64,000 nt of DNA from contig NZ_FOQT01000001.1 in assembly GCF_900113805.1 (NCBI RefSeq), forward strand, positions 496,001 to 560,000, in the 5' to 3' direction. This stretch comes from Halpernia frigidisoli (GTDB taxonomy: Bacteria > Bacteroidota > Bacteroidia > Flavobacteriales > Weeksellaceae). The notes under the pieces are model-generated. The model was not told where the DNA came from. It ran no database searches and saw nothing but the letters and a program-made list of their open reading frames with translations. The translations under genes and the position numbers were made by a program. Of this stretch, positions 6,821 to 17,722 are shown piece after piece. The stretch's first letter is position 1. Every line of letters begins with the position of its first letter.

Positions 6821-9800
6821 ATGTATTTAATTTTCGATACCGAAACCACCGGTTTACCTCAAAATTTTAACGCACCGCTCACAGATTCAGACAATTGGCC
6901 GAGAATGGTTCAGATTGCGTGGCAATTGCATGATGATGACGGTACTTTGCTTGAAAATCAGGATTATCTTATTAAACCTGAGGGTTTTGATATTCCATTT
7001 AATGCCAGTAGAATTCACGGGATTTCTACTAAAATGGCGATGGAAGAAGGAAGAGATCTGCAGGAAGTTTTGGTAGAATTTTCGGAAGTTATTACGAGGT
7101 CAAAAATTGGCGTTGGTCACAATATTATTTTTGATTATAATATCGTTGGCGCAGAATTTTTACGCAAAAATTTAGAAAATTCCTTGGAAAATCTGGCGTC
7201 TGCGGATACGATGATTCTGGGAACGGATTACTGCAAATTAGGAAGTGGTAGAAACGGCAAATGGAAGTCGCCGAAACTGACGGAATTATTTCAGATCTTA
7301 TTTGGTGAAAAGTTTGATGAAGCGCACAACGCTGCAGCAGACGTCAACGCAACGGCACAGATCTTCTTTGAAATGATGCGTTTGAATATTATTTCAGCGG
7401 AAGATCTCAAAATAAGCGATGAAGTTTTTAGAACATTCCAAAGCCAACATTCTTCGCCGATAAAACCTTTTGCAATCGTCATCCGCCGACAGGTTTCAGC
7501 TAATAAAAACCGCAAAAATAAAACAGATTTTGGCGATACCGATGAAATAGAAATTGGTGATTATTTTAATTTTCACAACCACAGTATTTATTCGTCTTTG
7601 CAGGCTTCTTCGAGCATTGCGGATTTAATTTCGAAGGCTTCAAAAAATAATTTTCCCGCGGTTGGTTTGGTCGATTTGGGGAATTTAATGGGCGCTTTTA
7701 AATTCGTGACAGAAGTTGAGAAATACAATAAAAGTTTAGAAGATAAATTACCAATTGACAACGCAGATTTAGAAAATGCACCGAAGAAATTAATCCCGAT
7801 TTTAGGTTGTGAATTTTATATTTCAGACCGTCCGGAACAGAAACAATTTACAAAAGATGATCCTGACAGACGGACAAATATGGTGCTTTTGGCAAAAAAT
7901 ATGAACGGTTATAAAAACCTGACAAAATTGTCGAGTATGGGTTTTGTGAACGGCTTTTATTTTGGCGTTCCAAGAATTTCCCGGGAAATGATTTCTAAAT
8001 ATAAAGACGATCTGATCGCTGTAACATCAAGTTTAAATGGCGATATTCCCGATACTATTTTAAATTTTGGAGAACAAAAAGGCGAAGAGATTTTCAAATG
8101 GTGGAAAGATACTTTTGGCGAGGATTTTTATATTCAAATTCAAAATCATAATTTGCCGGAAGAAGAATATTTAAATCAAATTTTACTAGGATTTGCAGAT
8201 AAATATGAGGTTAAAATTTTAGCCCAAAATGAAACTTTTTATACCGAAAAAGAAGATTCTAAAATTCAGGATATTTTGTATTGCATCAAAGATGGCGAAA
8301 AACTAACAACCGAAGTTGGTAAAGGTTTTGGCAAAAGACGTGGTTTAAAAAGTGACAATTATTTTATCAAAGATTCAAAAGAATTAAAGAAAGATTTTCG
8401 GGATTTTCCGGATGCTTTTGAGGCTTATTCAGAGTTATTGGCAAAATTTACACCTTACACTTTAAAAAGAGATGTTTTACTGCCAAAGTTTGAAATTCCC
8501 GAACAATTTTTAGACGAAGAAGATTTGTTAGATGCTGGAAAACGTGGCGAAATGGCGTATTTAACGCATTTGACTTACGAAGGCGCGAAAAAAAGATATG
8601 GCGAAATAACCGAAAAAATAAAAGAAAGAGTTGATTTTGAATTGTCGGTTGTAGCCAATACAGGTTATCCTGGTTATTTTTTAATTGTGCAGGATTTTTG
8701 TGAAGTGGCGCGACAAATGGGCGTTTGGGTTGGTCCGGGTCGTGGTTCTGCCGCGGGTTCTGTTGTGGCTTATTGCACGGGAATTACCAATGTTGATCCT
8801 ATAAAATATGATCTGCTTTTTGAGCGATTTCTAAATCCGGAACGTATTTCCATGCCGGATATTGATATTGATTTTGACGACGAAGGTCGGGACAAGATAA
8901 TAAAATGGGTGGTTGAAAAATATGGTAAAAACCAAGTAGCACAAATTATTACGTATTCCGTTTTAGGTGGGAAATCTGCCATAAAAGATGCGGGAAGAGT
9001 GATGGATGTTTCAATTTCTGAAACCAATAATATTGCTAAATTAATTCCTTCCACGCCGGGAATGAACATCGCAAAAGCCTTAAATAAACCTGAAAAATTG
9101 CGTCCGGAAGACCGTGTTTTAGCGGAAGAAATGAAAACTATTTTGGCTAATTCTTCTGATGGAAGATTTGCCGTTTTAGATGCGGCGAGAAAAATGGAAG
9201 GTTGCATTCGAAATACCGGAATTCACGCATGTGGTGTGATTATCACGCCCGAAGATATTTCAAATTTAGTTCCGATCACGATTTCGGGAAAAGATGCGGA
9301 AATTTTGGTTTCTCAGTTTGACAATTCTGTGGCGGAAGATGCGGGTTTACTGAAAATGGACTTTTTGGGTTTGCGAACTTTGACAATTTTAAAACACGCG
9401 ATTGCATTAATTAAGCAAAAACACAATATTGAAATTGATCTCGATAACTTGTTATTAGAAGATCCAAAAACCTATCAACTCTTTAAAGAAGGAAAAACGG
9501 TTGGGATTTTTCAATATGAAAGTTTGGGAATGCAAAAATATATGCGGGAATTAAAACCGGATAAATTTGCAGATTTAATTGCGATGAATGCCCTTTACAG
9601 ACCTGGACCAATTAAGTATATTCCAAATTTTATTAACAGAAAAAATGGATCGGAAGTCGTAGAATATGATTTGCCAGAAACACAGGAATATTTAGAAGAA
9701 ACGTACGGAATTACTGTTTATCAGGAACAGGTAATGCTACTCTCTCAAAAATTAGCCAATTTTACCAAAGGTGAAGCCGATACGTTAAGAAAAGCAATGG

Positions 9801-11416
9801 GGAAAAAACAGAAATCTGTATTAGATAAAATGTACCCAAAATTTATTGAAGGTGGCGAAAAAAATAATCTTGACAGAATAAAATTAGATAAGATCTGGAA
9901 AGACTGGGAAGCCTTTGCAGAATACGCTTTTAACAAATCCCACTCGACTTGTTATGCCTTAATTGCTTATCACACGGCTTATTTAAAAGCCAATTTTCCG
10001 GCGGAATATATGGCGAGTGTGATGTCTAATAATATCAATAACACCAAACAAATTACGCTTTTTATGGAAGACTGTAAAAATATTGGCGTTGATGTTTTGG
10101 GTCCCGATGTAAATGAATCTGCGTTTCATTTTGCAGTGAATGAAAAGGGACAAATTCGCTTTGGATTGGGCGCTATTAAAGGAATCGGCGAAGGTCCGAG
10201 TGAAGCAATTGTGAAGGAAAGAAAAAACGGAGAATTTAAAAGTATTTACGATTTTTTTGAACGCGTTCCGTCGTCCCAAATGAATAAAAGAGTGGCGGAA
10301 AGTCTGGTTTTCGGGGGTGGATTTGATGAGGTTGACAATTATCACAGAGCGCAATATTTTGATGTCGATAATTCGGGCAGAACAAATATTGAAATTTTGC
10401 TAAAATATGGACAAAGTTTTCAGGACAGTAAAAATGAAATTGAACATTCACTTTTTGCCGATTTTGCGGATGAAGTGAAGATTGAAAAGCCAAAAATCAA
10501 TCCCGCACCAGAATGGCAAAATATGCAAAAACTCAACAAGGAAAAGGAAATTATCGGCTTTTATCTTTCCGCGCATCCGCTGGATGAGTTTCAATATCAG
10601 TTTAAATTTATGCAAGGCGCACTTTCCCGTAAGGAAATTTTAGAAACTAAAAAAGAAGAAATCGAAATTGAAAGCGTGATCTTACCTACGGAAATTTCCG
10701 ATGATAGTGATGATGATAAGGAAGTTGTCGATTTAATTGAAACTGCAGATGGCGAAGATGAAATTATTGAAGAAATTTCCAAAAAAGTAGAACCAAAAGG
10801 CGCATTTAATTTCTTGAATTTAGATGAAGTTGAGGTTTATAAAAACCAGGTTTTTGCAGATCTGAATCCGGATTTATTTTCTGATTGGAATGAGCGGAAA
10901 AAAATAAATGATCGAAGCAAAGAATTTACAGTTGCCGGTTTAATAACCACTTATGAAGTGAAAGACAGCCCGAGAAGTGGGGAAAAAATCGCGTTTTTAT
11001 CGGTTGAAGATTACACGGGAAGTCAGAGTTTTCGTTTGGGCGACCGTGATTATTTGCGACTTCGGGACAAAGTTGATGTTCAGCGTTTTGTTATCATAAA
11101 GTTTAAATATTCACTTTCCGGCGACGGTCGCGTTTTCGTGAATATTACAGATGTGGAAGATCTGCGTGAAGCGCTTGATAAATTTGCAAAAACGATGAGT
11201 GTAGTTTTAAATGTAGAAGATCTTCGGGAAAAAGATGTGGATTTTTTCAAAACTTTAATTCAGAAAAAAGGCGAGCATAAACTTAACTTTTATATTAAAA
11301 ATTCTGTGGAAGAATCGCATTTAGAAGTTCATTCCATGCAAACACATATTAACATTAATGCGGAAACTTTGTCGCTTTTTAATACTTTTAATAAGTTTGA
11401 ATTTTTCTTGAATTGA
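6821..11416 (+). CDS. dnaE: DNA polymerase III alpha subunit with N-terminal proofreading exonuclease
   Basis: The replicative polymerase. The 1531-aa protein starts directly with a DEDD exonuclease domain (about 1-190): FDTETTG gives D6 and E8, and there are VGHNIIFDY and AHNAAADV motifs, so proofreading is fused to the polymerase. A PHP domain follows near residue 250 (NFHNHSIYSS). The palm has GPGRGSAAGS and the catalytic PDIDIDF motif near 679-685. A helix-hairpin-helix region and an OB-fold (FTVAGLITTYEV) come near the C terminus. A separate epsilon subunit usually supplies the exonuclease in proteobacteria. The start ATG is close to a T-rich promoter region. The assignment is secure. 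Confidence 0.96.
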   Translation: MYLIFDTETTGLPQNFNAPLTDSDNWPRMVQIAWQLHDDDGTLLENQDYLIKPEGFDIPFNASRIHGISTKMAMEEGRDLQEVLVEFSEVITRSKIGVGHNIIFDYNIVGAEFLRKNLENSLENLASADTMILGTDYCKLGSGRNGKWKSPKLTELFQILFGEKFDEAHNAAADVNATAQIFFEMMRLNIISAEDLKISDEVFRTFQSQHSSPIKPFAIVIRRQVSANKNRKNKTDFGDTDEIEIGDYFNFHNHSIYSSLQASSSIADLISKASKNNFPAVGLVDLGNLMGAFKFVTEVEKYNKSLEDKLPIDNADLENAPKKLIPILGCEFYISDRPEQKQFTKDDPDRRTNMVLLAKNMNGYKNLTKLSSMGFVNGFYFGVPRISREMISKYKDDLIAVTSSLNGDIPDTILNFGEQKGEEIFKWWKDTFGEDFYIQIQNHNLPEEEYLNQILLGFADKYEVKILAQNETFYTEKEDSKIQDILYCIKDGEKLTTEVGKGFGKRRGLKSDNYFIKDSKELKKDFRDFPDAFEAYSELLAKFTPYTLKRDVLLPKFEIPEQFLDEEDLLDAGKRGEMAYLTHLTYEGAKKRYGEITEKIKERVDFELSVVANTGYPGYFLIVQDFCEVARQMGVWVGPGRGSAAGSVVAYCTGITNVDPIKYDLLFERFLNPERISMPDIDIDFDDEGRDKIIKWVVEKYGKNQVAQIITYSVLGGKSAIKDAGRVMDVSISETNNIAKLIPSTPGMNIAKALNKPEKLRPEDRVLAEEMKTILANSSDGRFAVLDAARKMEGCIRNTGIHACGVIITPEDISNLVPITISGKDAEILVSQFDNSVAEDAGLLKMDFLGLRTLTILKHAIALIKQKHNIEIDLDNLLLEDPKTYQLFKEGKTVGIFQYESLGMQKYMRELKPDKFADLIAMNALYRPGPIKYIPNFINRKNGSEVVEYDLPETQEYLEETYGITVYQEQVMLLSQKLANFTKGEADTLRKAMGKKQKSVLDKMYPKFIEGGEKNNLDRIKLDKIWKDWEAFAEYAFNKSHSTCYALIAYHTAYLKANFPAEYMASVMSNNINNTKQITLFMEDCKNIGVDVLGPDVNESAFHFAVNEKGQIRFGLGAIKGIGEGPSEAIVKERKNGEFKSIYDFFERVPSSQMNKRVAESLVFGGGFDEVDNYHRAQYFDVDNSGRTNIEILLKYGQSFQDSKNEIEHSLFADFADEVKIEKPKINPAPEWQNMQKLNKEKEIIGFYLSAHPLDEFQYQFKFMQGALSRKEILETKKEEIEIESVILPTEISDDSDDDKEVVDLIETADGEDEIIEEISKKVEPKGAFNFLNLDEVEVYKNQVFADLNPDLFSDWNERKKINDRSKEFTVAGLITTYEVKDSPRSGEKIAFLSVEDYTGSQSFRLGDRDYLRLRDKVDVQRFVIIKFKYSLSGDGRVFVNITDVEDLREALDKFAKTMSVVLNVEDLREKDVDFFKTLIQKKGEHKLNFYIKNSVEESHLEVHSMQTHININAETLSLFNTFNKFEFFLN

Positions 11417-13841: not shown

Positions 13842-15299
13842 TTAGTTTTTTTTGATTTTAGAAAACTTACTATTGTTATTTTTTCCAAAATAGAAATTGA
13901 GACCGAGTCCGAATTTTAGGATATTATCATCTCTTTTACCGGCAACAAGTCCATCCCAGTCATCATTAAATCCGAAATCATATTCTCCGTAGGCCTGCAA
14001 GCCTAAATAATTAGTGATTAAATATTCCAAACCTGCACCTGCCTGGGCTTTTGGTTTTAAGTGGTTAAAATAAGAATAACTGTAACCAACATAACCCAAA
14101 CCTCCAAATAAATACGGCGTAAATTTATCATTTGGCATTAATAAAAATTCTAAATTAAGATCCGTAGAACTAAATTTTCTTTTAAAAATATCTGTATTTT
14201 CCAATTCGAATTTGGCAAAATTCAATTCAATATTGAAATGGTCATTGATGAAATATTTTGCATTTATTTTATAACCCGGTTTCATTACAGCATTATTGTA
14301 ATCACCTTTGATAGTATTTGATTCTGCATTAACTCCAATGCCGAATTTCCCTCTTCTGGAATCCAGAATCCTATTGTCAATACGGAAATTGTCATTTATA
14401 ATTTCTTCTTTATTGTATTCTGCTATTATGGAATCGATCTTAGATTTTTTAGATGGTTCGACATCCCAAATTTTATCTTTTACGCCCTCTATTATTAATG
14501 AATAAACAGATTTTTCGATCGCTTCTTTCACGGCTAATTGCACAGGTTCGTTTTTAGTAATGCCAATATCTGCTTCCAATAATCTTTCAGTATCCACGTA
14601 GCGAAATAAGTTTCCAGTAACAGATTGAAAAAGAAGTGTCTTTGATGTGTAAACTGTTTTTAAAATTTTTCCAGTCGAAGTTGAAACTGCGCGTAGATAA
14701 ACGGTGACATTATCCTGACGGTATTGCGAAGAGCCACCAATACCGAAATATCTTGCGCCCAATCCTCCAGTCATAATATTGGTATCGTAAGAAACAATAC
14801 CACCCTCCAGAATTATACCTGCATAAAGCAAGGGAGGAAGTGATTGAATAGTATTATTCTGTGAAGTATTTGAAGCTGAACTATTTGCTGGATTTAAAAC
14901 AGGATTTGAAGCAGAATATTCCTGACGCGTCGTCCGGATGATTTGTCTCTCGTTCAATAAATCACTGATATTTTCCCTTTCGATTGGCATAAACCATTTT
15001 GAATCTTCCAGAGCTTTTATCAAAATAGAGGTTGTTCCTTGCGGTATCGCGGTACTCCAGTTGGTACCATTTTCAGAAGGTTTGTACTGCCCGGTCTGGT
15101 CTTTAAATTTATAAACAGCAACCACGACTTTTTCTTTTGGATCGGGTAAACTTTTTATAATTTTGGTGTAAGGCGTTATTTCGCCCATTGTAGAATTTTG
15201 TTTCTCAGTCGGAGGTCGGAAGAGTGCGCTGCAACTTTGCAACATCGCAAACGACAAAACCGTCATAAGTTTTTGGTTTGATTTTTTTTTGGTTAACAT
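13842..15299 (-). CDS. csgG: CsgG curli secretion channel with extra C-terminal outer-membrane barrel
   Basis: CsgG forms the outer-membrane pore through which curlin subunits leave. The 485-aa lipoprotein has a lipobox MLQSC (Cys23) and a CsgG domain over about 40-290, including VVVAVYKFKDQTGQYKP, WFMPIERENISDLLNERQII and LEGGIVSYDTNI. E. coli CsgG is about 277 aa. The extra 190 residues here (about 300-475) are alternating beta-strands (YKINAKYFINDHFNIELNF, YLFGGLGYVGYSY, YLGLQAYGEYDFGF) typical of an OmpA-like eight-stranded barrel, fused in frame. It is in the csg operon between csgF and the propeller lipoprotein. What the added barrel does is unknown. Confidence 0.93.
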   Translation of the reverse strand: MLTKKKSNQKLMTVLSFAMLQSCSALFRPPTEKQNSTMGEITPYTKIIKSLPDPKEKVVVAVYKFKDQTGQYKPSENGTNWSTAIPQGTTSILIKALEDSKWFMPIERENISDLLNERQIIRTTRQEYSASNPVLNPANSSASNTSQNNTIQSLPPLLYAGIILEGGIVSYDTNIMTGGLGARYFGIGGSSQYRQDNVTVYLRAVSTSTGKILKTVYTSKTLLFQSVTGNLFRYVDTERLLEADIGITKNEPVQLAVKEAIEKSVYSLIIEGVKDKIWDVEPSKKSKIDSIIAEYNKEEIINDNFRIDNRILDSRRGKFGIGVNAESNTIKGDYNNAVMKPGYKINAKYFINDHFNIELNFAKFELENTDIFKRKFSSTDLNLEFLLMPNDKFTPYLFGGLGYVGYSYSYFNHLKPKAQAGAGLEYLITNYLGLQAYGEYDFGFNDDWDGLVAGKRDDNILKFGLGLNFYFGKNNNSKFSKIKKN

Positions 15300-15333: not shown

Positions 15334-15738
15334 TTAGGGTATAATGATTTCCGTTTGCTCGCCTGTCTGAGTGTCCAGAATACTCACATACAAGCCGGAA
15401 GTTGATCTCAAGATGTTGATATATAGATTGCCTAAAGTGTAACTTCCCGGTTGTAAATTTGAAGAAGATCCGAAATCTGTCCCAAAAAGATTTCTGGAAA
15501 GTTGATTGAGGATCTGCCGGTTTACATCTTCATTAAAACTTGAAATCGCACTTTTCTCATTAAATCCCTTGTCTTTATCATTGTCAAATTGATTTTGGGC
15601 ATTTGCAGAACTCAAAAGCCACTGGTAATTAAAAGTGTCGCCACCGAAAGCAGGATTTACAGGTTTGTACACGAATTGTTGCGCGTTGTAATAATTTCCT
15701 ATGAAGAGCAACAAAAGCGACAGATAAAAAGTTTTCAT
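15334..15738 (-). CDS. csgF: CsgF curli assembly factor
   Basis: CsgF sits at the CsgG exit and helps anchor and nucleate curlin fibres. The 134-aa precursor has a signal peptide ending near YNAQQ. It is followed by the CsgF signature FVYKPVNPAFGGDTFNYQWL and the SSANAQNQF stretch, which in E. coli inserts into the CsgG channel. The C-terminal half is beta-rich (GSYTLGNLYINILRS...LYVSILDTQTGEQTEIIIP). It is 34 bp upstream of csgG on the same strand. The length and motif agree with the family. Confidence 0.92.
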   Translation of the reverse strand: MKTFYLSLLLLFIGNYYNAQQFVYKPVNPAFGGDTFNYQWLLSSANAQNQFDNDKDKGFNEKSAISSFNEDVNRQILNQLSRNLFGTDFGSSSNLQPGSYTLGNLYINILRSTSGLYVSILDTQTGEQTEIIIP

Positions 15739-15763: not shown

Positions 15764-16099
15764 TTAAGGAGCAGATTCCCTGTCGATCAGATCTTTTCTA
15801 TTATTATATTCATTGAGGATTTTTAAAAGATTGTAAACCTGTGATGAAAGAAATTCTTCATTAGGATTCATTATGAAACCGTAAACATTTTTATCTTCAG
15901 CATCTATTAAAATTTGTCCTTTTTGATTTAGAGACGGTTTTTCTGTAATGGTGATAATAAAATCGTATTTCTTTAGAAGCTGAGAATATTGTGTGTAAAA
16001 AAGATCGAAAAAATCTTTGCCAAATTTCGTCTTAGTATTATCGATCACTATTCCCGAAATTTTGGAAATATCATCAGCTATGATTTTTGGCAGATTTAC
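15764..16099 (-). CDS. csgE: CsgE domain, out of frame with its N-terminal half
   Basis: CsgE caps CsgG and specifies curlin substrates. This reading frame contains the CsgE core TKFGKDFFDLFYTQYSQL, ITEKPSLNQKGQILIDAEDKNVYGF and SSQVYNLLKILNEYNNR. It has no signal peptide and no good start: the first NTG is a GTG at 16048, inside the domain, while CsgE-like sequence reaches upstream to GTA at 16099 (VNLPKIIADDISKISGIVIDNT). There it joins the ORF above by a -1 shift at an A10 tract. Joined, the product would be about 245 aa, the size I recall for flavobacterial CsgE. It could be expressed by frameshifting or slippage, or be an off-phase allele. Confidence 0.85.
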   Translation of the reverse strand, partial: VNLPKIIADDISKISGIVIDNTKTKFGKDFFDLFYTQYSQLLKKYDFIITITEKPSLNQKGQILIDAEDKNVYGFIMNPNEEFLSSQVYNLLKILNEYNNRKDLIDRESAP

Positions 16100-16110
16100 T
16101 TTTTTTTTTC
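16096..16110 (-). promoter_or_regulatory. A10 slippery tract with in-frame A AAA AAG then UAA
   Basis: Read on the minus strand the junction is GAA AAA AAA AAG TAA. The heptamer A AAA AAG is in the zero frame and is the same heptamer used for frameshifting in E. coli dnaX. A stop codon follows at once. A -1 shift gives AAA AAA GTA AAT CTG, which is exactly the CsgE frame. The ten A residues could also slip during transcription or replication. Confidence 0.7.
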
Positions 16111-16500
16111 AACGTTTATTTCTAAACTGTCCTTGGATATCAATAAATTTTTATTTTCATCTCTTACAAAAAGATAGGCTTTAAGCTGGTCGCTTGATTT
16201 CATATTAATGGAAATTTCCGACAAAGTTTTAGTTTCATCCGGATTAATGACAAATTTACCCTGCTGTTTGTTATTATTCGCGTTTCCTTCAGAACCTTGT
16301 TTAATAACCATTAGTAAATAATTCAATTCATAGAATACTTTGCTCTTATTTGTCGCCGTACCTTTTAAAGTCATTATATCACCTTCCCGCGTCATTATGA
16401 TCTTTGCTGAAATCTCTACAGTATCATGAGTTTTTTGGGCTTTAGATAAAATCATATTAAAAGCTGATAGAAATGTTAAAACAAATAAAAATTTTATCAT
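16096..16500 (-). CDS. CsgH-like N-terminal half of the split CsgE protein
   Basis: A 134-aa secreted ORF with a signal peptide (MIKFLFVLTFLSAFNMILSKA) and an Ig-like beta domain. The layout ISAKIIMTREGDIMTLKGTA, YELNYLLMVIKQGSEGNANNN, GKFVINPDETKTLSEISINM resembles CsgH, the small periplasmic curlin-aggregation inhibitor. It ends in VEKKK at a TAA that directly follows the A10 tract; a -1 shift at A AAA AAG continues straight into the CsgE domain. The normal product is probably a CsgH-CsgE fusion of about 245 aa. Alone, this half could act as a free CsgH-like chaperone. Confidence in the fold is moderate. Confidence 0.75.
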   Translation of the reverse strand: MIKFLFVLTFLSAFNMILSKAQKTHDTVEISAKIIMTREGDIMTLKGTATNKSKVFYELNYLLMVIKQGSEGNANNNKQQGKFVINPDETKTLSEISINMKSSDQLKAYLFVRDENKNLLISKDSLEINVEKKK

Positions 16501-16510
16501 TGCAATGTTT

Positions 16511-16900
16511 TTAATAATTTCTTACAATTACGGTTCTATTATCTCCAGTAATTTTTATCGTCATACCGTCAGAAATGCTATTGCTTCCATTAACGTCTAT
16601 ATAATTATTTATACCATTTTCGATAATATTTATACTCGAAGATTGAAGTCCGTTGTTATCCCTGTAATAAAGTTCATTTCTATTTCCATTTTGTTGAAGA
16701 TTAACTTTATCATCAATGAGATTTATTTTTGCAATATTGTAATTACCGATCTGCGAGAGAACATTTTCTGAAACTATTATTGAGTTTTCCCCAGAAATAC
16801 TCATCAAAGCACCAATATTTGACGAATTGATCTGTTGAAACTGATTACTCTGCGATTTAGCCAGAACGCTAAAAAAAATTAAAGAAATAAAAATTTTCAT
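16511..16900 (-). CDS. CsgB-like minor curlin / nucleator
   Basis: A 129-aa secreted protein with signal peptide (ends near LAKSQS) and short curlin-like repeats: SQIGNYNIAKINL, QQNGNRNELYYRD, IENGINNYIDVNGSN, ITGDNRTVIVRNY. The repeats are fewer and looser than in the neighbouring major subunit, as expected for a CsgB-type nucleator. It lies between the curlin gene and csgE in one leftward unit, 66 bp after csgA. The role is inferred from family and position. It ends in NY rather than in a further repeat. Confidence 0.78.
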   Translation of the reverse strand: MKIFISLIFFSVLAKSQSNQFQQINSSNIGALMSISGENSIIVSENVLSQIGNYNIAKINLIDDKVNLQQNGNRNELYYRDNNGLQSSSINIIENGINNYIDVNGSNSISDGMTIKITGDNRTVIVRNY

Positions 16901-16966: not shown

Positions 16967-17722
16967 TTAGTTGCTTTGGAAAATAGTTTGAGAGTTTCCG
17001 TTTCCAAGTTGAACACCATAATGAACGTGATCAGTTCCCATTTGAGTTACATCAATAGAGTTGTTATTCCCTTGTTGATAGTCCCAGGCGAAATTTCTGT
17101 TCCCATCTTGGTATTGAGAAACTACGTTAGAATCGCCAATTTGGTAAGCGACAGCTGAATTTCTGTTTCCAAGTTGAAATTGATCCGCAGTGTTAAAATC
17201 ACCAAGCTGCAAAGCTCCAGCGTAATTTCTATTTCCCACCTGTGTTTGGAAAGTTGTGTTTACATCACCATATTGGTAAGATTCTGCAGTATTTCTGTTC
17301 CCAGTTTGGTTTTGAAAACTCCAGTTAAAAAAGCCATCCTGCACATTAGTAGCAGAGTTTCTGTTTCCAGTTTGGTTTTGTACACTCAAGTTGATTACAC
17401 CGTTTTGATCTACTACAGCATCATTTCTGTTACCAACTTGTGTCGTGTAATTTTCATTAGCTAAACCTACTTGTGTCACATCAATTGAATTACGATTTCC
17501 AGTACTTACAGATTCATTGTAGTTAAACGATCCCAGCTGATCAGTTGATGCATCATTTCTATTACCTGTTTGGGTAATATAGTTCTCATTAGAATTTCCG
17601 ACCTGGCTTATATTGGCATTATTTAGATTGCCAATTTGTTGAGTAATGTCAACGTTCGCTTGTGCAAAAGATAATGTTCCTAAAAATAGGGTTGCTGCAC
17701 TTAATAATAAATTTTTCATCAT
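16967..17722 (-). CDS. CsgA-like major curlin subunit
   Basis: The main fibre protein of curli-type amyloid. The 251-aa precursor has a signal peptide (LGTLSFAQA) followed by about 20 half-repeats of 11 residues, each with a G-x-x-N turn. Strong QTGNRN-type turns alternate with weaker ones (GSFN, GLAN, GVIN, GFFN, GDVN, GDFN, GDSN), so the full repeat is 22 residues, stacking as a beta-solenoid. E. coli CsgA has five such repeats; this one has about ten. It is the first gene of the leftward curli operon. Start: two adjacent ATG codons; MKNLL is the usual one in the family. It is longer and more repetitive than E. coli CsgA. Confidence 0.9.
   Translation of the reverse strand: MMKNLLLSAATLFLGTLSFAQANVDITQQIGNLNNANISQVGNSNENYITQTGNRNDASTDQLGSFNYNESVSTGNRNSIDVTQVGLANENYTTQVGNRNDAVVDQNGVINLSVQNQTGNRNSATNVQDGFFNWSFQNQTGNRNTAESYQYGDVNTTFQTQVGNRNYAGALQLGDFNTADQFQLGNRNSAVAYQIGDSNVVSQYQDGNRNFAWDYQQGNNNSIDVTQMGTDHVHYGVQLGNGNSQTIFQSN

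Follow-up and report, generated by a model that had tools for sequence, protein, structure and literature searches.

A conserved A10 run between csgH-like and csgE frames is probably a recoding site in curli operons of Flavobacteriales

Recoding at runs of A is already known in bacteria. In Thermus thermophilus dnaX, transcriptional slippage takes place on a coding A9 run, a stop codon lies close by in the slipped frames, and a long and a short product are made (PMC1088944). In Citrobacter rodentium tssM1, a type VI secretion gene with an A11 run, the default frame stops just past the poly-A and slippage restores a longer protein; secretion was shown to depend on the two forms and on the ratio between them (PMC4256274). 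The -1 frameshift of Escherichia coli dnaX uses the in-phase heptamer A_AAA_AAG, a nearby stop codon and a single tRNA-Lys(UUU), and has stem-loop and SD-like stimulators (PMC3711429, PMC5009743). In E. coli this heptamer shifted far more readily than the others in the same comparison, and a single tRNA-Lys is present in about half of the known bacteria (PMC5009743). Among curli proteins, CsgC and CsgH inhibit the fibrillation of curli subunits, CsgC at ratios down to 1:1000, and CsgE, which inhibits at 1:1, caps CsgG with a 9:9 stoichiometry (PMC5135000).

Here, we describe an A10 run at a csgH-csgE junction in a 64,000-nucleotide stretch of Halpernia frigidisoli DNA (the whole stretch analysed, hereafter the window). 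Judging from sequence comparisons, this run is very probably a conserved recoding site that should yield a free CsgH-like inhibitor as well as a CsgH-CsgE fusion. As in T. thermophilus dnaX, a coding A run with a close stop codon would give a long and a short product; however, the unslipped frame encodes the long product in Thermus and the short one here, in another gene and another phylum. The tssM1 gene is, by analogy, the nearest functional precedent, although it was proven experimentally and has an A11 run, whereas the curli A10 run recurs over dozens of species and is known from sequences. E. coli dnaX shares the heptamer, the nearby stop codon and the single tRNA-Lys(UUU), but its shift gives the shorter product, whereas the curli shift would give the longer one. 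The curli inhibitors CsgC and CsgH and the CsgE cap (PMC5135000, PMC4838910) resemble the proteins described here in their folds (2n59, 2xsk and 2na4) and in their partners (csgA/B, csgF and csgG), but CsgC and CsgE are separate genes in E. coli, whereas in Flavobacteriales the two parts belong to one polypeptide, which would depend on recoding in the species with a split gene. The curli setting is new: the literature searched, outside of which lay the survey of disrupted bacterial ORFs, yielded no description of a recoded curli operon, and the main text of a genome-wide frame-transition survey contains no mention of curli (PMC3711429).

In the window, positions 16120-16080 of the minus strand, on which all of the curli genes lie, read ...GTT GAA AAA AAA AAG TAA ATC TGC.... 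The zero frame (16096..16500) encodes a CsgH-like protein of 134 aa with a signal peptide-like N-terminus and the terminus VEKKK-stop. The A10 tract (16100..16109) encodes the Lys-Lys-Lys of the interdomain linker, the in-phase heptamer A_AAA_AAG was read directly from the sequence at 16099..16105, and the zero-frame UAA stop codon (16096..16098) abuts the 3' side of the heptamer. The frame carrying CsgE (15764..16108) is in the -1 register and accessible by a net -1 shift only; the domain proper spans 15794..16060, corresponding to positions 1-89 of Pfam PF10627 (54.8 bits; gathering cut-off 25). There is no ATG upstream of the domain in this frame; the sole possible start codon is a GTG at 16048, which lies within the domain and would give a product without a signal peptide. 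The original prediction had described a secreted CsgH-like ORF ending GAA AAA AAA AAG TAA with an A10 tract and a CsgE domain in the -1 frame with no usable start of its own, and all of these points proved correct.

The CsgH-like ORF matches NCBIfam NF041112 (43.2 bits; cut-off 35), and its score against Pfam CsgH is 18.9, under the cut-off of 27. An AF2 model of this ORF shows a complete seven-strand Ig-like sandwich of the CsgH/CsgC type (pLDDT 90.7), with CsgH 2n59 and CsgC 2xsk as the top PDB matches. The ORF contains no cysteines, and hence lacks the distant disulphide-forming pair (PMC4838910); for this reason we call it CsgH-like. Its inhibition of CsgA fibrillation is putative, by analogy with these proteins. 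In the AF2 model of a fused homologue (L058), residues 137-239 match CsgE 2na4 (Z 11.5, rmsd 4.0, 100 residues aligned), and the Lys-Lys-Lys linker lies within a predicted disordered stretch (127-142; pLDDT <50) that separates the CsgC/CsgH-type domain from the CsgE domain, both of them complete folds. According to these models, the short and long products would both be domain-complete. The window CsgE retains 13 of the 13 residues invariant in alignment A1, in which the window itself is one row.

The window operon looks complete. Upstream of the split gene are a curlin repeat protein, CsgA/CsgB-like (16967..17722; PRK10101, E 8e-22), and, directly upstream, a small secreted protein (16511..16900) that is probably the minor curli subunit, assigned to the csgB position by location and appearance with no family match. 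A similar small gene occupies the same position in Flavobacterium johnsoniae CI04 (L142) and in G191 (L031). Downstream follow csgF (15334..15738; PRK10050 family, E 1.2e-8) and the csgG secretion channel (13842..15299; PRK15184, E 1e-65; NF052316 at residues 390-460). F. johnsoniae CI04 has the same gene order, csgA-csgB-csgHE-csgF-csgG, and its csgHE is likewise split. The window CsgG is 485 aa long, of which the E. coli-type model spans about residues 10-297; its C-terminal extension resembles PorG/outer-membrane barrel domains, and the CsgG of F. johnsoniae CI04 (453 aa) looks alike in length. Elsewhere in the window, 6821-11416 on the plus strand holds a 1531-aa DNA polymerase III alpha-like ORF with, by eye, an apparent DnaQ-type exonuclease motif (FDTETTG) at its start.

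Within the window's GTDB family, Weeksellaceae, CsgE is present in 156 out of 320 genomes and, among those listed, is nearly always part of one continuous frame of ~243-286 aa fused to a CsgH-like part. A shorter CsgE frame, of ~114-119 aa, is the exception, present in the window and in G191, G193 and G194, three species that belong to a second genus. The junction reads GTA AAA AAA AAA CTT TAG in G191 and G193, giving A_AAA_AAA followed by C and not AAG, and GTA AAA AAA AAG TCC TAG in G194; a -1 shift is needed in all three. The sister species in the window's two-species genus (G001) had zero CsgE matches; the curli system differs within this genus. One Chryseobacterium-like fused frame (L034, G031; 189 aa) has its CsgH part truncated upstream, a change unrelated to the A tract.

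An order-wide comparison found the same split in >50 Flavobacterium loci, in genomes that include F. johnsoniae CI04, F. pectinovorum, F. aquidurense, F. hibernum and F. frigoris. A search with the window CsgE alone returned nothing, whereas an alignment including Flavobacterium members retrieved these loci. After removal of identical sequences, 59 distinct split loci remained, a count that includes related species with shared ancestry in the main clade rather than independent events: 57 have an A10 tract and one an A9 tract, all needing a net -1 shift (58/59), and one has an A12 tract and needs a +1 shift. The last of these (L114, G1011; minus strand, about 665-652), from a close relative of F. 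tiangeerense, is the only split locus whose needed shift is not -1. In the few loci read outside Flavobacteriales, we saw no A-tract split; the N-terminal parts of CsgE differ there, being LysM-like by eye in L293 (G1089), and L286 (G1323) is a standalone CsgE with a signal peptide.

We mapped the split state onto a tree of 155 CsgH+CsgE sequences, a quick tree in which some branches are long, the window's among them; it required a minimum of nine state changes. Split loci fell in at least four distinct parts of the tree: the window, the genus of G191, F. frigoris DSM 15719, which is nested within a clade of fused genes, and one large clade of Flavobacterium in which a few members are fused. 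The split state is probably derived, since the fused state is commoner both in Weeksellaceae and among other genera of Flavobacteriaceae. The split form of csgHE is dispensable for curli, since most Weeksellaceae relatives do without it. Sixteen fused loci retain at least nine A near the junction, and in most of them a slip in either direction leads to a stop codon within six codons. Fused csgHE genes with an A9-A11 linker include L090, L096, L102, L118, L120 and L103 and relatives; these have a -1-frame stop codon within a few codons, and slippage in them would release a short CsgH-like product.

Between split loci, the CsgE part had a median dN/dS of 0.055 (84 pairs) and the CsgH part a similar 0.081, and CsgE dN/dS between G191 and G194 was 0.067; these values come from other split loci, the nearest relatives of the window CsgE being too distant for this test. 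Judged from these sequence comparisons, purifying selection acts on the CsgE that lies downstream in split loci. The codon preceding Lys-Lys-Lys was GAA in 51, CAA in 4 and GTA in 3 of the 58 loci needing a -1 shift, with no GAG or CAG at all, compared with a background in the same genes of 79% GAA versus 21% GAG and 57% CAA versus 43% CAG, although an overlapping A_AAA_AAA also depends on the wobble A of GAA. One codon further upstream, usage varied normally (23 GAA and 7 GAG). The codon pattern indicates that tract length is kept beyond the needs of one heptamer. The run ended as an in-phase AAG, giving A_AAA_AAG, in 56 of the 58 loci, the window included, and across separate origins (the window, G194 and F. 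frigoris), although the CsgE-frame codon after KKK (D/E/V/A) partly determines the phase in which the final G falls. In 86% of split loci, the zero frame met a stop codon no more than two codons on, compared with 25% of control positions.

The shift could come from RNA polymerase adding an A, from a ribosome moving -1 on A_AAA_AAG, or from both. We regard it as evenly balanced whether polymerase stutter on the A10 run, with +1 A transcripts encoding the fusion, is the main route. Run lengths of A9-A12 are common to the 59 split loci and lie at or above the nine A associated with poly-A slippage, A9 and A11 runs being proven slippage sites (PMC1088944, PMC4256274). The wobble positions beyond the last heptamer are also A, and fused relatives such as L103 and L120 retain A9-A11 even without an AAG ending. 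The in-phase AAG, partly dictated as it is, counts against polymerase slippage and argues instead for a dnaX-like ribosomal shift aided by the nearby stop codon, which is quite possible as the main route, if somewhat doubtful. The window's genome (G000) decodes lysine with tRNA-Lys(UUU) only, having two UUU genes and no CUU gene among 35 tRNAs in an Rfam search. The A_AAA_AAA C of G191 and G193 and the conservation of run length past one heptamer's need do not favour the ribosome. Nor was there a conserved downstream hairpin in the split loci (alifold energy 0.0; mean folding z -1.26, versus -0.58 in fused controls), and an SD-like AGGA or GGAG within 30 nt upstream occurred in only 8 of 58 loci, with no conserved element. 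Thus, the analogy with dnaX drawn in the original prediction held for the heptamer and the adjacent stop codon but not for the stimulators.

We also weighed readings in which nothing is recoded. If csgE were a decaying pseudogene or the A10 tract an assembly error, the uninterrupted frame of most Weeksellaceae relatives would be explained, but the same split appears in dozens of genomes produced by many laboratories in unrelated projects, CsgE is under strong purifying selection, and the window CsgE has lost none of its alignment-invariant residues. The window's genome, as assembled, has 46 A10 runs; among the 42 others inspected, not one divides a gene, and five lie in continuous ORFs. Because no other inspected A10 run splits a gene and the split recurs in relatives, the arrangement is more than chance; we rejected decay or error, which is very unlikely indeed for the window and excluded, in the case of assembly error, as a general cause. 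Replication slippage toggling CsgE between cells is highly unlikely, if a shade less so. Such A tracts are mutable, and lengths sometimes differ between close relatives, F. turcicum being fused with A11 and F. erciyesense split with A10, and L114 having A12 and L115 A10; however, free switching would spread lengths over three frames, whereas split loci are near-invariant at A10, and length is constant even between species with clear silent divergence (e.g., L076 and L078; dS 0.32-0.58). This comparison between species disfavours the phase-variation option of the original prediction. Separate translation of CsgE, by internal initiation or by reinitiation past the CsgH stop codon, hardly comes into consideration. 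The overlap of stop codon and CsgE frame recalls translational coupling, and standalone CsgE proteins with their own signal peptide exist in some other Bacteroidota (e.g., L286), but no ATG precedes the domain in the CsgE frame in any of the 58 split loci, a start codon of any kind is absent in 51 of them, and the product would have no signal peptide. With these start codons missing, CsgE must be reached from the upstream frame, and we rejected an internal start.

Programmed frameshifting and transcriptional slippage, the other options of the original prediction, fit the data: the arrangement is conserved, it has arisen independently at the same linker, and its CsgE is under purifying selection. 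The prediction also held that uninterrupted frames in all relatives would make the split a simple error or a one-off mutation; most near relatives do have an uninterrupted frame, but the split is present in a large group, and the tract length that it proposed to check in sister genomes was A10 in nearly every split locus.

Under the recoding model, the default product would be a secreted, free CsgH-like inhibitor terminating shortly after Lys-Lys-Lys, and slippage on the A run would bring a fraction of the products into the frame of csgE, giving a secreted CsgH-CsgE fusion. A single gene would thereby supply both, mostly free inhibitor with some fusion. The ratio of the products would then determine how much soluble amyloid inhibitor there is compared with the CsgE available to cap and serve the CsgG channel. 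We infer the production of both proteins, the stage (transcription or translation) at which slippage occurs and the role of the ratio. More tentatively, the slippage ratio may be a tuned or regulated dial for free amyloid inhibitor versus CsgE cap, with fused lineages that keep the tract arriving at the same two products from the opposite direction, either slip mostly stopping within a few codons.

If both products are made, this would be the first described case, within the literature searched, of recoding in the secretion operon of a functional amyloid. The probable recoding site is widespread, covering most CsgE loci of one large Flavobacterium clade, and the lack of a start codon in its frame makes csgE easy to overlook, or to annotate as a pseudogene, in split genomes. 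The A10-split species and the tract-bearing fused species together form a natural experiment on the gain and loss of recoding sites, and the locus would offer a simple genetic handle on how cells balance amyloid inhibitor against secretion cap.
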